A stretch of DNA of 12,578 bases, taken from contig CATKEA010000134.1 in NCBI GenBank assembly GCA_949746915.1, positions 1 through 12,578 on the forward strand. The letters run 5' to 3'. Below are positions 3,842-10,835 of the stretch, one piece after another (position 1 is the stretch's first letter; each line of letters starts with the position of its first letter). The notes beneath the pieces are model-generated. The model was not told the DNA's origin. It was given only the letters and a program-made list of their open reading frames with translations, and did not search any database. Source of the stretch: an uncultured Bacilli bacterium. GTDB lineage: Bacteria > Bacillota_I > Bacilli_A > RF39 > UBA660. The translations under genes and the position numbers were made by a program.

Positions 3842-4720
3842 CTAACTATCTATGCCCATTATTTCTAAAATACGATTTAAGTCATTATTATTAACAAAAG
3901 AAATTTCAATTTTATTTTTCTTTATTTTTACTTTTGTTCCATATTTATCACATAAATTTTCTTCTACATATTTAAATTCATTATTTCTTTGTTGTTTTGT
4001 TACTATATTTTTCTTTTTGTAATCTTCGTCGACAGCCAAGTCTTCAACTTGTCTAACACTTAAATTTTCTTTAATTACTTTATTAGCAAGTTCTATAACC
4101 TTTTCATCATCTTCTATTTTTGATAAAACACGTGCATGTCCCATGGATATTTTATCTTCTAAAACAAATGTTTTTACCATTTCTGGCAAACCTAAAAGGC
4201 CTAACATATTAGTTATATGACTACGACTTTTTCCTAATCTTTGTGCTAAGGCGTCTTGGGTTATTTTTAATTCATCTAAAAGCTTTCTATATGCTTGAGC
4301 TTCTTCAATAGCATTTAAGTCTTCTCTTTGCAAATTTTCTAGTAATGCTATTTCCATCATTTCTGTATCAGAAAAATCTCTTATTATAGCTGGTATAGTT
4401 GTTTTTCCTGCCATAGTTGAAGCTTTTACTCTTCGTTCTCCTGCTACTATTTCATATCCTTTAATACTCTTTTTTAAAATTACAGGTTGAAATACACCAT
4501 GTTCTTTTATTGAATCAGCTAGTTCTTGAAGTGCTGCTTCTTCAAATACTTTACGAGGTTGGTATGGATTACTTCTTAATTCACTTATATTTACTTCAAC
4601 AACAGCATCTTTAGGAGTTGATTCTTGTATCTTTTCCTCTATTTGTTCATATTCTATTGGTTCATTATTAAATAATTCTTCTAAGCCTCTTCCAAGAGCT
4701 CTTCTTCTAGTTTGTTCCAT
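3842..4720 (-). CDS. parB: chromosome partition protein ParB (Spo0J)
   Basis: This CTP-dependent DNA clamp loads at parS, spreads along the origin region, recruits SMC condensin and stimulates ParA. From ATG at 4720 it is 292 residues. Arg-rich RRRALGRGL near the N terminus is the usual ParA-activating segment. SNPYQPR at 50-56, the CTP-binding GERR at 94-97 and ENLQREDLNAIEEA at 128-141 follow. The helix-turn-helix lies at about 153-178, and the C-terminal dimerisation domain (KYGTKVKIKKNKIEISF) spans about 239-290. Recognition positions read R166, M172, G177 and G194, with Arg and the last Gly as in parS-binding ParB rather than Noc. An in-frame TTG at 4729 would give 295 residues. The AAGGAAGTGA site lies very close to that TTG and rather far from the ATG, so the start is open. 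It overlaps parA by 14 bases. Confidence 0.95.
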   Translation of the reverse strand: MEQTRRRALGRGLEELFNNEPIEYEQIEEKIQESTPKDAVVEVNISELRSNPYQPRKVFEEAALQELADSIKEHGVFQPVILKKSIKGYEIVAGERRVKASTMAGKTTIPAIIRDFSDTEMMEIALLENLQREDLNAIEEAQAYRKLLDELKITQDALAQRLGKSRSHITNMLGLLGLPEMVKTFVLEDKISMGHARVLSKIEDDEKVIELANKVIKENLSVRQVEDLAVDEDYKKKNIVTKQQRNNEFKYVEENLCDKYGTKVKIKKNKIEISFVNNNDLNRILEIMGIDS

Positions 4721-5492
4721 TTCGTGCAATCACTTCCTTTGCTAAATTTAGATAAGCCTCTGCTCCTTTACTTTTAGAATCATAGGCTAGAATTGGTTTC
4801 CCATGTGAAGGCGCTTCTGTTAGTCTAACTAATCTTGGGATTATTGTGTCATAAACTCTTTCTTTGAAATATTTCTTTACCTCTTCTACTACTTCTAAAC
4901 CAAGGTTTGTTCTTGAAAGCATTGTTAATAGTACTCCTTCTATATCTAAGTTTGGATTTAAGTTTTTCTGAGCTAACATAATAGTATTAAGCAATTGCAT
5001 TATACCTTCTAGTGCAAAAAATTCACATTGAACAGGAATAATAACTGAGTTAGATGATGTTAAGGCATTCGTTGTTAACATTCCTAATGATGGTGGGCAA
5101 TCTATTATTAGAAAGTCGAATGCATCTTTTATTCCATCTATAGCATTTTTTAATTGTGTTCCTTTTGAAAAGTTACTTTCTAATTGACTTCTTTCTAGTA
5201 ATTCAATATCCACTCCTGCTAAATTTATAGTTGCTGGTAAAATAAATAAATTTTTATATTTTGTTTTTATAATTGCTTCTTCTATTTTACATTTTCCTGT
5301 AATAACATCATATGTACTTTTATCTATGTCGCCTTTATTTATTCCTACACCGGTAGTTGTATTTCCTTGTGGGTCGAGATCGATTAATAAAACTCTTTTT
5401 CCAAGTACTGCTAGCGATGCAGAAAGATTAATACTAGTTGTAGTTTTTCCAACGCCACCCTTTTGATTTACTAATGAAATAACCTTTCCCAT
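4707..5492 (-). CDS. parA: chromosome partition ATPase ParA (Soj)
   Basis: This 261-residue ParA/MinD-type ATPase forms ATP-bound dimers on nucleoid DNA and is driven off by ParB. In Bacillus, Soj also regulates DnaA. The deviant Walker A KGGVGKTT is at 11-18, with the signature Lys11 and the catalytic Lys16. The A' region LIDLDPQGN contains D38 and D40. Walker B is LIIDCPPSLG with D131, and the late conserved stretch LTEAPSHGKPI is present. SRTNLG at 193-198 corresponds to the arginine-containing DNA-binding patch of Soj. The protein is close to B. subtilis Soj along its whole length. The start is ATG at 5492 with AAGGTGAT upstream. It is the first gene of a five-gene unit and its 3' end overlaps parB. 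Confidence 0.97.
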   Translation of the reverse strand: MGKVISLVNQKGGVGKTTTSINLSASLAVLGKRVLLIDLDPQGNTTTGVGINKGDIDKSTYDVITGKCKIEEAIIKTKYKNLFILPATINLAGVDIELLERSQLESNFSKGTQLKNAIDGIKDAFDFLIIDCPPSLGMLTTNALTSSNSVIIPVQCEFFALEGIMQLLNTIMLAQKNLNPNLDIEGVLLTMLSRTNLGLEVVEEVKKYFKERVYDTIIPRLVRLTEAPSHGKPILAYDSKSKGAEAYLNLAKEVIARNGTN

Positions 5493-5610: not shown

Positions 5611-6702
5611 TTATTCTTGTTTTTTGTCTATTTTAATAATTACTTGATAAGTATTTTCAAAATCCATTTCATCTATCTTTACAGAAAAACCATTTTTTTC
5701 TATGTTGGCAGCTGCTATTTTAATTGTATCTATTGCTTCTTTAGTATTTCTTATATTTGTTGATTTATTTTCATAAGATATAGAATCATTGGTTGTTGTT
5801 AATGTTTCAACAGCTGGAACATTATTTAATGCTGTTGGGGTTTCTTCTGTATCTTCGTCATCAATAATAATTGGTTCTGTTGGCATCATTAATCTATCAG
5901 CAAATGAAAATGGTTTTTGTTGTGGTTCTGTATTATTATTTGTTTGGATGTTATTATTTAAATCGTTAATTTGTGGCGATGTATTTAGATCTGTTCTTAA
6001 TAAATCATCAAGATTAGCTGTTTGTCTTTCTGGTTTATATATATCACTTGTTTGCTCTTTTAATTTATTTACATCGATAATACTATTTGCTGTTATATCT
6101 TTAAATCCTTGCATTTTTCTTATTTCATTATCCAATTCTCTTACAGTCATTCTATTTTGGATAACTTTATGCATCATATCTATTTGTTGTTGACTATTTG
6201 ATAAATTTAATAAACTTCTTGCATGTCTTTCAGAAATTTGATTTGTTAATAGGGCTTCTTGTACTTCATCTGGTAATGCCAATAATCTTAATTTATTTGC
6301 AATGGCTGCTTGACTTTTTCCCATTGTTTTTCCTAATTCCTCTTGAGTCATACTATCTAGTTCAAGAATTTTTTGATAGGTTCTGGCTTCTTCAATGGCT
6401 GTTAAATCTTGTCTTTGTAAATTTTCTAGTAATGCAACCTTAGAAGTTTCTTTATCATCTAGATTTCTAATAATAGCTGGAATTTTTGTAAGACCTGCTA
6501 GAGCTGAGGCTTTATATCTTCTTTCTCCTGCAATTATTTCATATTTATCTCCTATTTTTCGTACAATAATAGGTTGAATTACTCCATGTTCACGAATAGA
6601 ATCTGATAATTCTTTTAGAGCTTTTTCATCAAATACTTCTCTAGGCTGGAATCTATTTGGTATTATATCATCAAGATATAAATCTACAACTTCTCTATTC
6701 AT
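5611..6702 (-). CDS. noc: Noc-like ParB paralogue with long C-terminal extension (nucleoid occlusion candidate)
   Basis: This 363-residue ParB-family protein sits between rsmG and soj, exactly where B. subtilis has noc (283 residues). The N-terminal CTPase domain has IPNRFQPR at 14-21 (the Noc form), GERR at 59-62 and ENLQRQDLTAIEEA at 93-106. The helix-turn-helix lies at about 118-143 (GKSQAAIANKLRLLAL), followed by ISERHAR at 156-162. Recognition positions are Q131, K137, A142 and R159: three Noc-type and one ParB-type. Two things are odd. The N-terminal amphipathic helix that anchors Bacillus Noc to the membrane is absent. After residue 200 comes a low-complexity N/T/D/E-rich linker (about 205-315) and a small C-terminal domain (about 318-361). 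Noc blocks division over the nucleoid, but that role is unproven here. ATG 6702 is chosen because AGAGGGG lies well placed upstream; an ATG at 6720 has no comparable site. Confidence 0.85.
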   Translation of the reverse strand: MNREVVDLYLDDIIPNRFQPREVFDEKALKELSDSIREHGVIQPIIVRKIGDKYEIIAGERRYKASALAGLTKIPAIIRNLDDKETSKVALLENLQRQDLTAIEEARTYQKILELDSMTQEELGKTMGKSQAAIANKLRLLALPDEVQEALLTNQISERHARSLLNLSNSQQQIDMMHKVIQNRMTVRELDNEIRKMQGFKDITANSIIDVNKLKEQTSDIYKPERQTANLDDLLRTDLNTSPQINDLNNNIQTNNNTEPQQKPFSFADRLMMPTEPIIIDDEDTEETPTALNNVPAVETLTTTNDSISYENKSTNIRNTKEAIDTIKIAAANIEKNGFSVKIDEMDFENTYQVIIKIDKKQE

Positions 6703-6741
6703 TTCTATCCCCTCTTTCATTCTTTCTACCCTATGTTATTG

Positions 6742-6771: not shown

Positions 6772-6798
6772 TGAAAAAATAGCAATTTGCTATTTTTT
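6768..6798 (-). terminator. Rho-independent terminator overlapping the end of rsmG
   Basis: An 11-bp perfect stem (6774-6784 with 6788-6798; AAAAAATAGCA paired with TGCTATTTTTT) has a three-base loop. It ends in a T run on the minus strand. The rsmG stop codon (6792-6790) lies inside the hairpin. The stem is nearly symmetrical and AT-rich, so it could also work on the other strand, but no plus-strand gene exists here. Confidence 0.75.
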
Positions 6799-7485
6799 TA
6801 TTTTATTTATTGGTCGTGGATATTTTCTATTTGTTGGTGCTAATTTTTTTATCAGTATTAATGTCCTTACACTATTTTCTATTGGAAGTAAAAATTTTTC
6901 AACCTTTTCTATATCTCCATTTACTTTTTTGATAATGTCTTTACTACTATTTAATTCTTCATCTGCATTGGCTTTCATTGCTATAAAATAACCATTTACT
7001 TTAGCAAGTGGAATACATATTTCACTTAATAGTTCTAGATTAGATACTGCTCTTGCTGTTACTATATCAAATTTTTCATAATTTAAACGAGCATAATCTT
7101 CTCCTCTTACATGATATGCTACTATATTTTCTAACGAAAGTTTGGATATGAGTTCATTTAAATAATTTACTCTTTTTTGAAGTGAATCTATTAGTGTGAT
7201 TTTTAAGTTTGGAAAGACAATTTTTAATAATAATCCTGGAAATCCAGCACCTGTTCCGATATCACATAATGTTTCTACTTCATATAAATTAATTACTTTA
7301 AATATTGTAAGGCTATCATAAAAGTGTTTTAAGTAAACATCTTCTTTTAAGGTTATTCTTGTTAAGTTTATTTTTTGATTCCATTCTATTAATAAATCAT
7401 AAAATTGATTTAATTTATTTAGTTGGTCTTTTGTTAAGCTTATCCCTAAATTATTTACTTCCTTTATAAACTCTTCTATTTTCAT
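6790..7485 (-). CDS. rsmG: 16S rRNA (guanine527-N7)-methyltransferase RsmG (GidB)
   Basis: RsmG uses S-adenosylmethionine to make m7G527 in the 530 loop of 16S rRNA; loss gives low-level streptomycin resistance in other bacteria. The 231-residue protein is near the usual 210-240. The N-terminal NQKINLTRIT is at 36-45. The SAM-binding motif DIGTGAGFPG is at 75-84, with the acidic strand end LIDS at 98-101. The substrate-side TARAVSNLELL follows at about 143-153, and the basic tail KYPRPINKIKK at 221-231 resembles the family's KYPRK end. The start ATG overlaps the mnmG stop as ATGA, so translation is probably coupled. A hairpin that includes the rsmG stop codon ends the transcript. Confidence 0.97.
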   Translation of the reverse strand: MKIEEFIKEVNNLGISLTKDQLNKLNQFYDLLIEWNQKINLTRITLKEDVYLKHFYDSLTIFKVINLYEVETLCDIGTGAGFPGLLLKIVFPNLKITLIDSLQKRVNYLNELISKLSLENIVAYHVRGEDYARLNYEKFDIVTARAVSNLELLSEICIPLAKVNGYFIAMKANADEELNSSKDIIKKVNGDIEKVEKFLLPIENSVRTLILIKKLAPTNRKYPRPINKIKK

Positions 7486-9347
7486 ATTTTCTTTTCCTTT
7501 TTTAAATAAACCATTAATATTGAAATATCAGCTGGATTTACTCCACTTATTCTTGAGGCCTGCCCAATTGATGTTGGTTTAATTTCTTTCAATTTTTGTA
7601 AAGCTTCACTAGCTAAATTATTTATTTTATCATAATTAATATCTGTTGGAATTTTGATGTTTTCAAGATCTAACATTTTTTGTGCTTCTCTATTAGCCTT
7701 AGCAATATATCCTTCATATTTTGTATTTATTTCTACTTGTTCTATAACTTCTATATCAAAATCTATATCAATAAAGTGCTTTAAATGACTTAAATTTATT
7801 TCTGGTCTTTTTAATATGTCAAATAAAGTTGTACTTCCTTCTGATAATTTGGGAGTATTAATTTTTTCAAAATAATCATTAACTTCTTTCTTTGGTGTTA
7901 TTTTAGTAGATTTTAATAGATTAGTTAGTTTATTTATATTTTGTTGTTTCTTAATAAATTTTTCATATTTTTCTTCAGAAATAAGTCCTACTTGATAGCC
8001 ATATTCTCTTAAACGAATATCTGCATTATCATGCCTTAATAATAATCTATATTCAGCTCTTGAAGTAAGCATTCTATATGGCTCTTTTGTTCCTTTAGTT
8101 ACTAAATCATCAATTAATACACCTATATATGCTTCATTTCTTTTTAATATTAATGGTGGTTTTTTTTCTAGTTTTCTTGCAGCATTTATTCCTGCTATTA
8201 ATCCTTGACCTGCTGCTTCTTCATATCCACTTGTTCCATTTATTTGTCCAGCTGTATATAAATTTTCAATTATTTTAGTCTCTAATGATTGTTTTATTTG
8301 TAATGGGTCTATAGCATCATATTCAATTGCATAGGCATATTTTAGTATTTCGGCTTTCTCCAAGCCTTCCAAACTATGAACCATTTTTTCTTGAACATCT
8401 TCTGGCATACTTGTAGAAAATCCTTGAATATATATGTCATCATAATAAATACTTTCTGGTTCTAAAAATAATTGATGTCTTTCTTTATCTTTAAAACGAA
8501 CAACTTTATCTTCTATTGATGGACAATATCTAGGTCCGATTCCTTCTACATATCCTCCATACATACTTGATTTATCTAAATTATCCATGATTATTTTATG
8601 GGTTTTATCATTTGAATAAACTAAATGACATGATATTTGATTTGCCACATCATACATTGGTTTATTGTCAAATGAAAATGTGTATCCTATTGAGTCTCCA
8701 GGTTCTAAGGAAGTTTTTGAAAAATCAATACTATTTTTTGCTATTCTTGGTGGTGTTCCTGTTTTTAAGCGTTGAATTGTAAAACCTAATTTTTTTAAAT
8801 TATCACTTAGATGCTTTGATGGTTTTTCACCATGTGGTCCACTTGATGTTTTAGTTGATCCTCTTAGAATAACAGCTTTTAGATATGTTCCTGTTGTTAA
8901 AATGACTATTTGAGATTTTATTATAGTTTGATCATCTAAAATAATTCCTTTTATTATATTGTTCTCTACAATTAAATCTTCAACGATACCTTCAAGAATA
9001 GTTAAATTTGGTTGATTTTCTAAAGTTTTTATCATTGCCTCTGGATATGTTACTTTATCTCCTTGAGCTCTTAGTGCTCTTACGGCTGGACCTTTTTTTG
9101 TATTTAACATCTTTACTTGAAGGCAACTGTGGTCTATATTATTAGCCATTTCTCCACCTAGAGCATCTATTTCTCTTACAATAATTCCTTTAGCTGGTCC
9201 TCCTATTGAAGGGTTGCATGGCATGTCTGCAATATTTTTCTTGTTTCCTGTAATAAGTAATGTTTTATGATTCATTCTTGCAGCTGCTAAACTAGCTTCA
9301 CATCCAGCATGCCCCCCACCTACTACAATTATTTCATATTCATTCAT
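7482..9347 (-). CDS. mnmG: tRNA uridine-5-carboxymethylaminomethyl modification enzyme MnmG (GidA)
   Basis: MnmG is the FAD-binding partner of MnmE. The complex adds cmnm5 (or nm5) at U34 of tRNAs reading split codon boxes, using methylene-tetrahydrofolate and NADH. From ATG 9347 the protein is 621 residues (usual about 620-630). The FAD Rossmann motif IIVVGGGHAGCEAS is at 6-19, followed by the family signatures MPCNPSIGGPAKG and GGYVEGIGPRYCPSIEDK, which contains a conserved Cys. Later come TAGQINGTSGYEEAAGQG, LTSRAEYRLLLRHDNAD and the C-terminal ASRISGVNPADISILMVYLKK. A TTG 87 bases upstream stays in frame, but the extra residues match no MnmG and are encoded partly by the palindrome at 9381-9406. 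ATG 9347 has AGAGGAAG about 10 bases upstream. It lies 120 bases after mnmE and overlaps rsmG by four bases. Confidence 0.97.
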   Translation of the reverse strand: MNEYEIIVVGGGHAGCEASLAAARMNHKTLLITGNKKNIADMPCNPSIGGPAKGIIVREIDALGGEMANNIDHSCLQVKMLNTKKGPAVRALRAQGDKVTYPEAMIKTLENQPNLTILEGIVEDLIVENNIIKGIILDDQTIIKSQIVILTTGTYLKAVILRGSTKTSSGPHGEKPSKHLSDNLKKLGFTIQRLKTGTPPRIAKNSIDFSKTSLEPGDSIGYTFSFDNKPMYDVANQISCHLVYSNDKTHKIIMDNLDKSSMYGGYVEGIGPRYCPSIEDKVVRFKDKERHQLFLEPESIYYDDIYIQGFSTSMPEDVQEKMVHSLEGLEKAEILKYAYAIEYDAIDPLQIKQSLETKIIENLYTAGQINGTSGYEEAAGQGLIAGINAARKLEKKPPLILKRNEAYIGVLIDDLVTKGTKEPYRMLTSRAEYRLLLRHDNADIRLREYGYQVGLISEEKYEKFIKKQQNINKLTNLLKSTKITPKKEVNDYFEKINTPKLSEGSTTLFDILKRPEINLSHLKHFIDIDFDIEVIEQVEINTKYEGYIAKANREAQKMLDLENIKIPTDINYDKINNLASEALQKLKEIKPTSIGQASRISGVNPADISILMVYLKKEKKI

Positions 9348-9380
9348 GAATAACACTTCCTCTATATTAAATTTGTTATT

Positions 9381-9406
9381 AAAATTATTTCCCGGGAAAT
9401 AATTTT
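9381..9406. promoter_or_regulatory. perfect 26-bp palindrome containing a consensus Noc-binding site (NBS)
   Basis: The 14 bases at 9387-9400 read ATTTCCCGGGAAAT, identical to the published B. subtilis NBS consensus. The palindrome extends perfectly for six more bases on each side (AAAATT outside left, AATTTT outside right). It lies in the 120-base gap between mnmE and mnmG, 34 bases before the mnmG start. CCCGGG is strikingly GC-rich for this DNA, and no second copy was seen in the window. A Noc-like protein with mostly Noc-type recognition residues is encoded nearby. Binding by that protein is inferred, and a local effect on mnmG transcription is possible. Confidence 0.85.
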
Positions 9407-9467: not shown

Positions 9468-10835
9468 CTATTTGCCTAAACAAAATTGACTAAATAATTG
9501 ATCTATTAATTCTTCACTATAGACATCACCTGTTATTTCACCTAACTTATTCCATGCTCTTTTGATGTCTATTTCAATCATATCTATTGGTATTTCATTA
9601 GTTATTGAAACATATACTTCTTCTAATATGCTCTTTGCTTCTTTTGCTAAAGATATTTGCCTAACATTACTTAAATACGTAAAATCTGATTTTTCTAGCA
9701 TATTAAGGTTAAACAATGTTTTTATTTTATCTTTCAAGTCATCTATTCCTTTTGCATCAATCGTATTTGTATATACAATATTTGGACACTCTATTTCTTT
9801 TATATTTATTTTGCTTTCTAAATCATTTTTATTAATAACTATAATTGTTTTTTTATTATTAGCCTTTGCGGTTGAAATTATTTCTTTATCTTCGTCTTTT
9901 AATTCTTCATTATTATTTAAAACTATAATTACTAATTCTGATTCTTCCATCATTTTTAAGCTTTTATCTACTCCTATTTTTTCTACTATATCATTTGTTT
10001 CTCTTATACCAGCTGTATCTATTATTTTTAATAAAACTCCATCTATTGTTATTTCTCCTTCAACTATATCTCTAGTTGTTCCTTCTATATCTGTAACGAT
10101 GGCCTTTTCTTCGTCCAATAATTTGTTTAGTAGACTACTTTTACCAACATTTGGTCTTCCCACAATGGCAGTTTTTATTCCTGTAGTTAAAACCTGACCA
10201 TTTTCTGAATCATTTATAATTTTAATTAGTTCTTTTTGGATAATATCTATCTGTGGTTTTACCAATTCATTCGTCATTTCAATTGCATCTTGATATTCTG
10301 GATAATCAATGTTTACTTCAATAGATGCTAATAATTCTAACATTTTTTGACGAAGATTTCTTATTTTTTTACTTGTAGCTCCTTCAAGTGATTTCATTGC
10401 TACTTTTCTGGCTTTTTCACTTGTTCCATTTATCAAATTTATTACAGCTTCTGCATTTACTAAATCTATTCTACCATTTAAAAAAGCTCTTTTTGTAAAT
10501 TCTCCTGGCTCTGCAAGTCTGGCTCCATTTGTTACTACTAATTCTAAAACTTTTTTTGTTGTTGCAATACCACCATGGCAGTTTATTTCTACTACATCCT
10601 CTGTTGTAAAGGTTTTTGGTGCTTTCATTATTGATACTAATACTTCATCTATTACTTCATTCTTTTCATTATCTATAATATATCCATAATTTATTGTGTG
10701 AGTATCTACTTTCTCTAAGTTTTTTCCTTTAAACATCTTATTTACTATTGATATTGAATTTTGACCACTTATTCTAATAATTGATATTGCTCCTACTCCT
10801 AAAGCTGTTGATATTGCTACTATTGTGTCATTCAT
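9468..10835 (-). CDS. mnmE: tRNA uridine-5-carboxymethylaminomethyl modification GTPase MnmE (TrmE/ThdF)
   Basis: MnmE is the G-protein half of the MnmEG complex that modifies U34 of tRNA. From ATG 10835 the protein is 455 residues, the normal size. It starts with the tetrahydrofolate-binding domain (TIVAISTALGVGAISIIRIS at 4-23; EINCHGG near 83-89; ARLAEPGEFTKRAFLNGRID near 105-124). A helical region follows, into which the G domain is inserted. G1 is GRPNVGKS at 226-233, G2 EGTTRD at 251-256, G3 DTAG at 273-276 and G4 NKND at 335-338. The C terminus is FCLGK with the catalytically important Cys452. An upstream in-frame ATG at 10871 would add 12 residues but lies before the ribosome site AAGGTGAT that fits ATG 10835, and it overlaps the likely promoter. 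It is first in the mnmE-mnmG-rsmG unit. Confidence 0.97.
   Translation of the reverse strand: MNDTIVAISTALGVGAISIIRISGQNSISIVNKMFKGKNLEKVDTHTINYGYIIDNEKNEVIDEVLVSIMKAPKTFTTEDVVEINCHGGIATTKKVLELVVTNGARLAEPGEFTKRAFLNGRIDLVNAEAVINLINGTSEKARKVAMKSLEGATSKKIRNLRQKMLELLASIEVNIDYPEYQDAIEMTNELVKPQIDIIQKELIKIINDSENGQVLTTGIKTAIVGRPNVGKSSLLNKLLDEEKAIVTDIEGTTRDIVEGEITIDGVLLKIIDTAGIRETNDIVEKIGVDKSLKMMEESELVIIVLNNNEELKDEDKEIISTAKANNKKTIIVINKNDLESKINIKEIECPNIVYTNTIDAKGIDDLKDKIKTLFNLNMLEKSDFTYLSNVRQISLAKEAKSILEEVYVSITNEIPIDMIEIDIKRAWNKLGEITGDVYSEELIDQLFSQFCLGK

Follow-up and report, generated by a model that had tools for sequence, protein, structure and literature searches.

The locus considered here raises the question of what a perfect 26-bp palindrome is doing in the short gap between two genes of an uncultured member of the Bacilli. 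The window, i.e. the whole stretch of 12,578 nucleotides that was analyzed, is contig C134 of an assembly comprising 1,420,423 bases in 274 contigs at 86.8% completeness. As originally predicted, the palindrome AAAATTATTTCCCGGGAAATAATTTT at positions 9381–9406 contains an exact Noc-binding site (NBS). Both features can be read directly from the DNA: the symmetry is broken only at 9380/9407, and the 14-bp core ATTTCCCGGGAAAT at 9387–9400 is the sole exact match in the window, the one other match having three mismatches. Neither feature is assigned to a strand, and the whole palindrome is annotated as an extended NBS on the basis of its sequence and of the flank frequencies at 100 exact sites described below.

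The palindrome is located in a gap of 120 bp, 33 bp before mnmG. On the minus strand mnmG extends over 7482–9347 (mnmG_gidA profile, 894.9 bits); its start is most likely the ATG at 9347, which is preceded by the ribosome binding site GAGGAAG, and the profile begins at residue 33 of a longer TTG frame. On the other side of the gap a minus-strand frame at 9468–10835 ends at 9468. It was taken from the list of open reading frames, has conserved matches in relatives and could also be read as a longer frame from 10871; from the gene order we take it to be mnmE. The remaining genes of interest are encoded on the same strand. The noc gene occupies 5611–6720 and encodes a protein of 369 aa if translation starts at the ATG at 6720, and of 363 aa with the ATG at 6702 as start. 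A listed open reading frame at 4707–5492, presumably parA (soj) by gene order, has matches that adjoin parB in nearer relatives with 73–95% identity, and parB (spo0J) at 3842–4729 shows parS-type recognition residues with R and G at the two switch positions. The order mnmE-mnmG-rsmG-noc-parA-parB is also that of B. subtilis. Between rsmG and noc there is in addition a short AT-rich inverted repeat, AAAAAATAGCAATTTGCTATTTTTTTA at 6774–6800, which could end rsmG transcription.

The protein encoded 2.7 kb from the palindrome (P0001) had been described as Noc-like with mostly Noc-type recognition residues, and both descriptions hold. Its best-scoring family is nucleoid_noc (NCBIfam TIGR04285) with 288.8 bits, which is below the curated cut-off of 315. 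In a maximum-likelihood tree of 29 rows, in which the bacterial family is represented by 12 of its 56 Noc proteins and by 11 ParB proteins, P0001 groups with the two solved Noc proteins apart from ParB with a support of 100/99, and these two references nest among the proteins of the family. Judged by its sequence, the window protein is a Noc ortholog. Its recognition residues Q137, K143, A148 and R165 are of the NBS type; the switch to NBS specificity has been reported to need Q173, R201 and one permissive Lys at 179 or 184 (PMC7383237). The pattern Q-K-x-R is found in 53 of the 56 family Noc proteins. For this survey 57 Noc frames were extracted and the fragments from G110 and G131 were left out; in G056, G097, G139 and G140 noc is absent from the fetched stretch. 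The CTP-site residues GERR and ENLQR are invariant in 17 sequences, and judging by these two motifs the protein may form a CTP-dependent clamp on NBS DNA. Proteins about 46–51% identical to Noc over half of its length are also encoded in records named as phages of Listeria or Staphylococcus (OR846756.1, OR850003.1 and similar), which may represent host DNA rather than phage genes.

An absence of other NBS-like sites from the genome had been named beforehand as evidence against a Noc-binding function. Within the whole assembly we detected no second NBS with up to two mismatches; this assembly, in which parA and parB are present, also contains no parS closer than two mismatches and no dnaA domain. 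The rest of the origin region beyond the window is probably absent from it. Since a single NBS was found while dnaA and parS are unassembled, the full NBS array of this genome is inferred from relatives, and with the origin contigs lacking here it is the relatives that settle the point.

The bacterial family, a member of GTDB order RF39, was sampled with 145 genomes from 144 genera; the genomes are small (0.5–1.7 Mb). An NBS with up to one mismatch occurs in 128 of them, with one to eight copies in 127 genomes and 23 copies in the remaining one; a reversed control pattern gave one match each in seven of the 145. dnaA was placed via PF08299 in 134 genomes. In the 28 most contiguous genomes the pattern ATTTCCNNGGAAAT is found 53 times, distributed over 25 genomes, and 50 of these 53 sites, from 23 of the 28 genomes, are no more than 27 kb away from dnaA. 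The three exceptions comprise a site on another contig in G118, whose dnaA contig breaks off within 1 kb beyond the dnaA match, and sites with non-consensus centres in G115 and G131. NBSs in this family are few and confined to the origin. The expectation of a chromosome-wide scatter that leaves out the terminus did not hold for the 28 contiguous genomes, the window's own genome being too fragmented for this comparison.

We also analyzed origin stretches of up to 40 kb around dnaA from 61 genomes (2.12 Mb in total), oriented by dnaA. The genomes were picked from the 134 with dnaA by contiguity and by the known places of dnaA and noc, and six of the wanted second halves are absent where the contig ended. 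The exact NBS 14-mer occurs 111 times in 48 of these genomes, and the 139 other palindromes that can be built from the same half-site letters together yield one occurrence in the same stretches. An unbiased count of palindromic 12-mers (GC >= 4) placed the NBS core TTTCCCGGGAAA at the top with 48 of 61 genomes, followed by the parS core TTTCACGTGAAA with 43 and by TTCCACGTGGAA with 10; those ranked next reach 4. The distribution around dnaA was determined in 48 genomes, the stretches of which reach 9 kb or more from the dnaA match in both directions. NBSs are present on both sides in 15 of them (3.5–9.6 kb away on one side, 3.2–15 kb on the other), on the side of the gene we take to be dnaN only in 29, on the other side only in one, and on neither in three.

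Conservation of the palindrome in the mnmE–mnmG gap of relatives, which had been proposed as a check, is supported for the neighborhood and not for the exact position. Among 21 named loci of the nearest clade that cover the stretch, an NBS is found upstream of mnmG clearly in 11 and probably in one more; in nine of the 11 clear cases mnmE is seen beyond the NBS, and in two the contig starts in between or no mnmE is seen. These loci overlap partly with the six fetched genomes that hold an NBS in the gap (G042, G128, G080, G110, G096 and G063, out of 61 stretches, not all of which contain the gap). The gap NBS abuts the stop codon of mnmE in four of the six and lies nearer to mnmG in G042, G110 and the window. 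Its position thus varies within the nearest clade, and base-by-base conservation of place was not found there. In G094, G104, G032, G086 and G077 an NBS is located in the jag–mnmE gap instead, where G128 carries its second site, and further NBSs are found where rsmG ends or directly upstream of noc (the latter in G107, G143, G055 and G090). In loci L023 and L035 (G003 and G006) NBSs fall within the coding sequence of rsmG, at a distance of a few hundred bases from noc. Selection appears to maintain an NBS in the neighborhood and not at one exact place.

The six additional symmetric bases on each side of the core had been taken as a sign of a longer footprint or of a cruciform. The former suggestion is supported, as these bases are mostly part of a longer site. 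At 100 exact sites (window included, G022 left out) the flanks read outward on both sides T (97%), T (74%), A (85%), A (82%) and A (67%), which gives a family-wide consensus of about AAATTATTTCCCGGGAAATAATTT with a length of about 24 bp. At 198 parS sites the two flanking positions next to the site read A, and a pattern of this kind is absent further out.

These observations bear on two other readings of the palindrome. Noc bound to the palindrome could act as an operator or roadblock that tunes transcription of mnmG-rsmG, as was considered in the original prediction. The short distance to mnmG and the NBS kept upstream of mnmG in the nearest clade agree with such a role, and the sites just upstream of noc could mean autoregulation. 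However, the gap is occupied in only six of the 61 stretches, whereas elsewhere the sites are found in other gaps or near parS: the letters stay constant while the place moves between the jag–mnmE gap, the mnmE–mnmG gap, the region upstream of noc and the vicinity of parS. In addition, no promoter-like match was detected on the minus strand between 9200 and 9700. We therefore regard an operator function as very unlikely. The palindrome could also act through its own structure, either by forming a hairpin in the mnmG leader or by extrusion from the DNA as a cruciform, and an 11-bp stem with a CCGG loop is indeed predicted in RNA. Folding is nevertheless no better than that of shuffled sequences (z -0.90, with 35 of 200 equally good), and a hairpin would tolerate any complementary stem, whereas the letters are fixed across the family and alternative palindromes of the same composition are next to absent from the origin stretches. 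Hairpin, terminator and promoter readings of the palindrome were rejected, a terminator signature also being absent, and we assign a structural role of the RNA or of a cruciform a close to negligible probability.

We next consider where the NBSs lie in relation to parS, defined here as up to one mismatch from the TGTTTC/TGTTCC forms. parS is present in 51 of the 61 origin stretches, at 7.3–9.8 kb downstream of dnaA if G026 and G039 are left out, whose arrays are elsewhere. Among the ten stretches without parS are seven that stop no more than about 2.4 kb from dnaA; G034 carries a variant parS, and none is seen in G032 and G143. Across the 51 genomes with parS, a parS is found within 200 bp of 60 of the 138 NBSs (ATTTCCYRGGAAAT). 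Leaving out G022, 47 of 125 NBSs are near parS, compared to a mean of 3.0 and a maximum of 13 in 2000 circular shifts. In 23 of the 51 genomes NBSs occur within the parS array or no more than 200 bp from it, usually about 8 kb downstream of dnaA; elsewhere they are mostly found some kilobases past the array or across dnaA. Within the 23 genomes the two kinds of sites tend to alternate, with 89 transitions between them versus 67.6 ± 4.8 in shuffled arrays, and none of 5000 shuffles reached the observed value.

Individual genomes illustrate this arrangement. In G110 five NBSs are each placed 27–28 bp centre to centre from a parS, and G013 and G054 are further examples of interleaved sites. In G022 (locus L161, G022:C1) 13 NBSs and 12 parS sites alternate with a period of about 79 bp in a satellite-like array, which is found about 3.0–4.0 kb into the locus and 8.0–9.0 kb downstream of dnaA. 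Since the arrays of G022 and G013 are partly tandem duplications, the alternation seen in these two genomes is not independent evidence. The sister genome G042, which belongs to the same genus as the window, carries one NBS at +8 kb, separated by 16 bp from a parS, and another at -5.2 kb within the mnmE–mnmG gap. Among the matches listed in a search of open-licence literature there was no report of NBSs inside parS clusters.

The presence of NBSs can further be compared with the recognition residues of Noc. The critical Q is replaced in G034 (V), G134 (E) and G123 (I, in a diverged recognition helix), and all three genomes are without NBSs. Conversely, ten NBS-less genomes (G101 and nine others, two of them only 64–69% complete, the rest not) still encode a Q-K-x-R Noc, and in G064, G025, G130 and G011 no noc was detected, the single match resembling ParB, yet one or two NBSs are present. 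In these four genomes the missing noc perhaps reflects assembly gaps. Because NBS-less genomes were examined preferentially (11 of 20 fetched stretches were used for this reading), the link between loss of the Q and absence of NBSs is suggestive only. At the usual place of parS, 8.1–9.2 kb downstream of dnaA, G034 (L171, G034:C20) carries nine copies of GTTACACGTGTAAC; this array is perhaps a rewired centromere, in a genome where the Noc helix is altered (VKTR) and no NBS is found. In G101, G123, G143 and G086, which have few or no NBSs, we found no new repeated palindrome that could serve as an alternative cognate site.

The N-terminus of the protein differs from that of Bacillus-type Noc. 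Residue 8 of P0001 aligns with residue 25 of 7nfu_A, P0001 being 17 residues shorter in front, and this N-terminal stretch is the place of the membrane helix in Bacillus-type Noc (PMC8429893). The amphipathic membrane helix is missing from P0001, the residues 1–8 of which are unstructured in the model. Across the 56 family Noc proteins a median of 15 residues precedes the motif IPNRFQPR, a number that rests on the chosen start codons. The structure model, a monomer with a mean pLDDT of 68.6 and a pTM of 0.39 that was used for secondary structure only, consists of N and HTH domains of the ParB type, followed by a disordered linker at about 205–325 and an alpha-beta-beta C-terminal domain. Linker length varies widely, whole family proteins comprising 327–719 aa. 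A short conserved stretch with a consensus near I-N-x-x-I-K-x-x-A-x-D-I-N follows the HTH domain (within 5611–6100 of the window). An FxF motif in the linker was considered as a conserved feature and dropped, since it is present in some Noc proteins only.

With these data two further readings can be weighed, which concern the protein that reads the site and the place at which it acts. The NBS could be recognized by ParB as a second type of parS and not by Noc. Such a reading would fit the mixing of both sites in one array, the fact that they differ at only two positions per half, and the four genomes that have NBSs and no detected noc. However, the window ParB carries the parS-type R and G where Noc has Q and R, every published ParB tested prefers parS and every Noc prefers NBS (PMC7383237), and the three genomes in which Noc lost the Q are without NBSs, so we attach very little credence to a ParB-read NBS. 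Alternatively, the sites could serve classical nucleoid occlusion, in which NBS-bound Noc at the membrane blocks division over the nucleoid, the small number of sites representing a reduced version on a small chromosome. The orthology by tree, the best score against nucleoid_noc, the exact NBS and the small genomes are in line with occlusion, and the sites of B. subtilis and S. aureus are reported to be origin-biased as well (PMC5540599). On the other hand, with 50 of 53 sites at 27 kb or less from dnaA most of the chromosome is left unmarked, whereas the known sets comprise about 70 sites around most of the chromosome (PMC4331003) or 41 loci over ±700 kb (PMC5540599). The missing N-terminal helix also argues against occlusion, although an anchor could be located elsewhere in the linker. 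B. subtilis Noc lacking its first 10 residues was not membrane-associated in a test with an NBS plasmid, and overproduced full-length Noc could bring the truncated protein to the membrane (PMC4331003). Taken together we consider classical occlusion unlikely in this family.

We instead favor the interpretation that the palindrome belongs to an origin-confined set of NBSs and that Noc probably acts at the centromere as a second, orthogonal clamp and not as a guard of division along the entire chromosome. This reading is based on the site itself, the recognition residues of Noc, the confinement to the surroundings of dnaA, the interleaving with parS and the missing helix. In such a mechanism Noc together with CTP, as in its relatives, would load at origin-proximal NBSs beside ParB and close as a clamp, and the clamps would then spread over kilobases toward oriC alongside ParB. 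In S. aureus Noc covers 8–10 kb around a peak, i.e. 4–5 kb in each direction, and restrains initiation (PMC5540599). With a comparable reach, Noc loaded about 5 kb before dnaA would cover its promoter side, and Noc loaded at +8 kb would extend into the ParB zone and partway back to dnaA; zones spreading 4–5 kb from -5 kb and from +8 kb would not fully meet. As there is no membrane helix, the effect might be exerted by the bulky disordered linker and by local partners at the origin–parS complex and not by tethering of the nucleoid to the membrane. Segregation, SMC loading or timing of initiation are candidate outputs, between which the sequence does not distinguish.

Compared with the Noc–NBS systems of B. 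subtilis and Geobacillus, the family has the same 14-bp core, Q/K/R residues and CTP-site residues as well as an ortholog by tree, and with B. subtilis it also shares the gene neighborhood. It differs from these systems in having a handful of origin-confined sites in place of about 70 scattered ones, in the weaving of sites into parS arrays, and in a Noc that combines a long, disordered linker with the lack of the N-terminal amphipathic helix. The site, extended to about 24 bp, may also differ from that of B. subtilis, which was compared over its core. S. aureus Noc has an identical NBS core, origin-biased sites, 8–10 kb spans and a link to the control of initiation; there all but one of the 41 loci are within ±700 kb, whereas in the family the sites lie up to about 27 kb from dnaA and are often mixed with parS sites (PMC5540599 for S. 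aureus). With the ParB–parS centromere the family's Noc–NBS system has in common few clustered sites downstream of dnaA and a clamp protein of one superfamily. Protein and site are however different ones, and the NBSs form a second orthogonal set in or next to the parS set.

Outside the family the picture is mixed. In a class-wide sample an NBS-like match with up to one mismatch was found in 114 of 296 genomes, many of the centres outside the family being unlike NBS. The sample includes 40 genomes of the family, 38 of them with a match (G275 with 11), and outside the family 76 of 256 genomes have one. In G170 (f17) all five sites fall in the interval from 14 kb ahead of dnaA to 25 kb past it (G170:C1:111464-150345); its Noc sits in an open frame of 681 aa. 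All three Y/R-centred sites of G342 (f19) lie within 15 kb of dnaA (G342:C33:28905-39127), this placement covering the Y/R-centred ones among seven sites counted with any one mismatch, and two of the three are 45–49 bp start to start from a parS, one of these two with two mismatches. In G165, G167 and G295 the Y/R-centred sites are far from dnaA; some other one-mismatch sites of G167 and G295 are located toward the opposite end of the single contig, and across the join they may be close to dnaA. The nearest relative with a species name that we found is Candidatus Scybalousia intestinigallinarum.

A duplication of ParB has been proposed as the source of Noc, which would have acquired its own sites afterwards (PMC7383237). 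Against this background we put forward, tentatively and at somewhat less than even chances, a two-protein centromere in which ParB–parS and a helix-less Noc–NBS would form orthogonal CTP clamps on an alternating array beside oriC. The ancestral job of Noc would then perhaps have been centromeric, before its sites were scattered and a membrane anchor was gained in the Bacillales. A lineage with a parS-like layout of Noc sites and no anchor makes it testable whether the origin function or nucleoid occlusion came first, and it would provide two orthogonal clamps that naturally share a single stretch of DNA.
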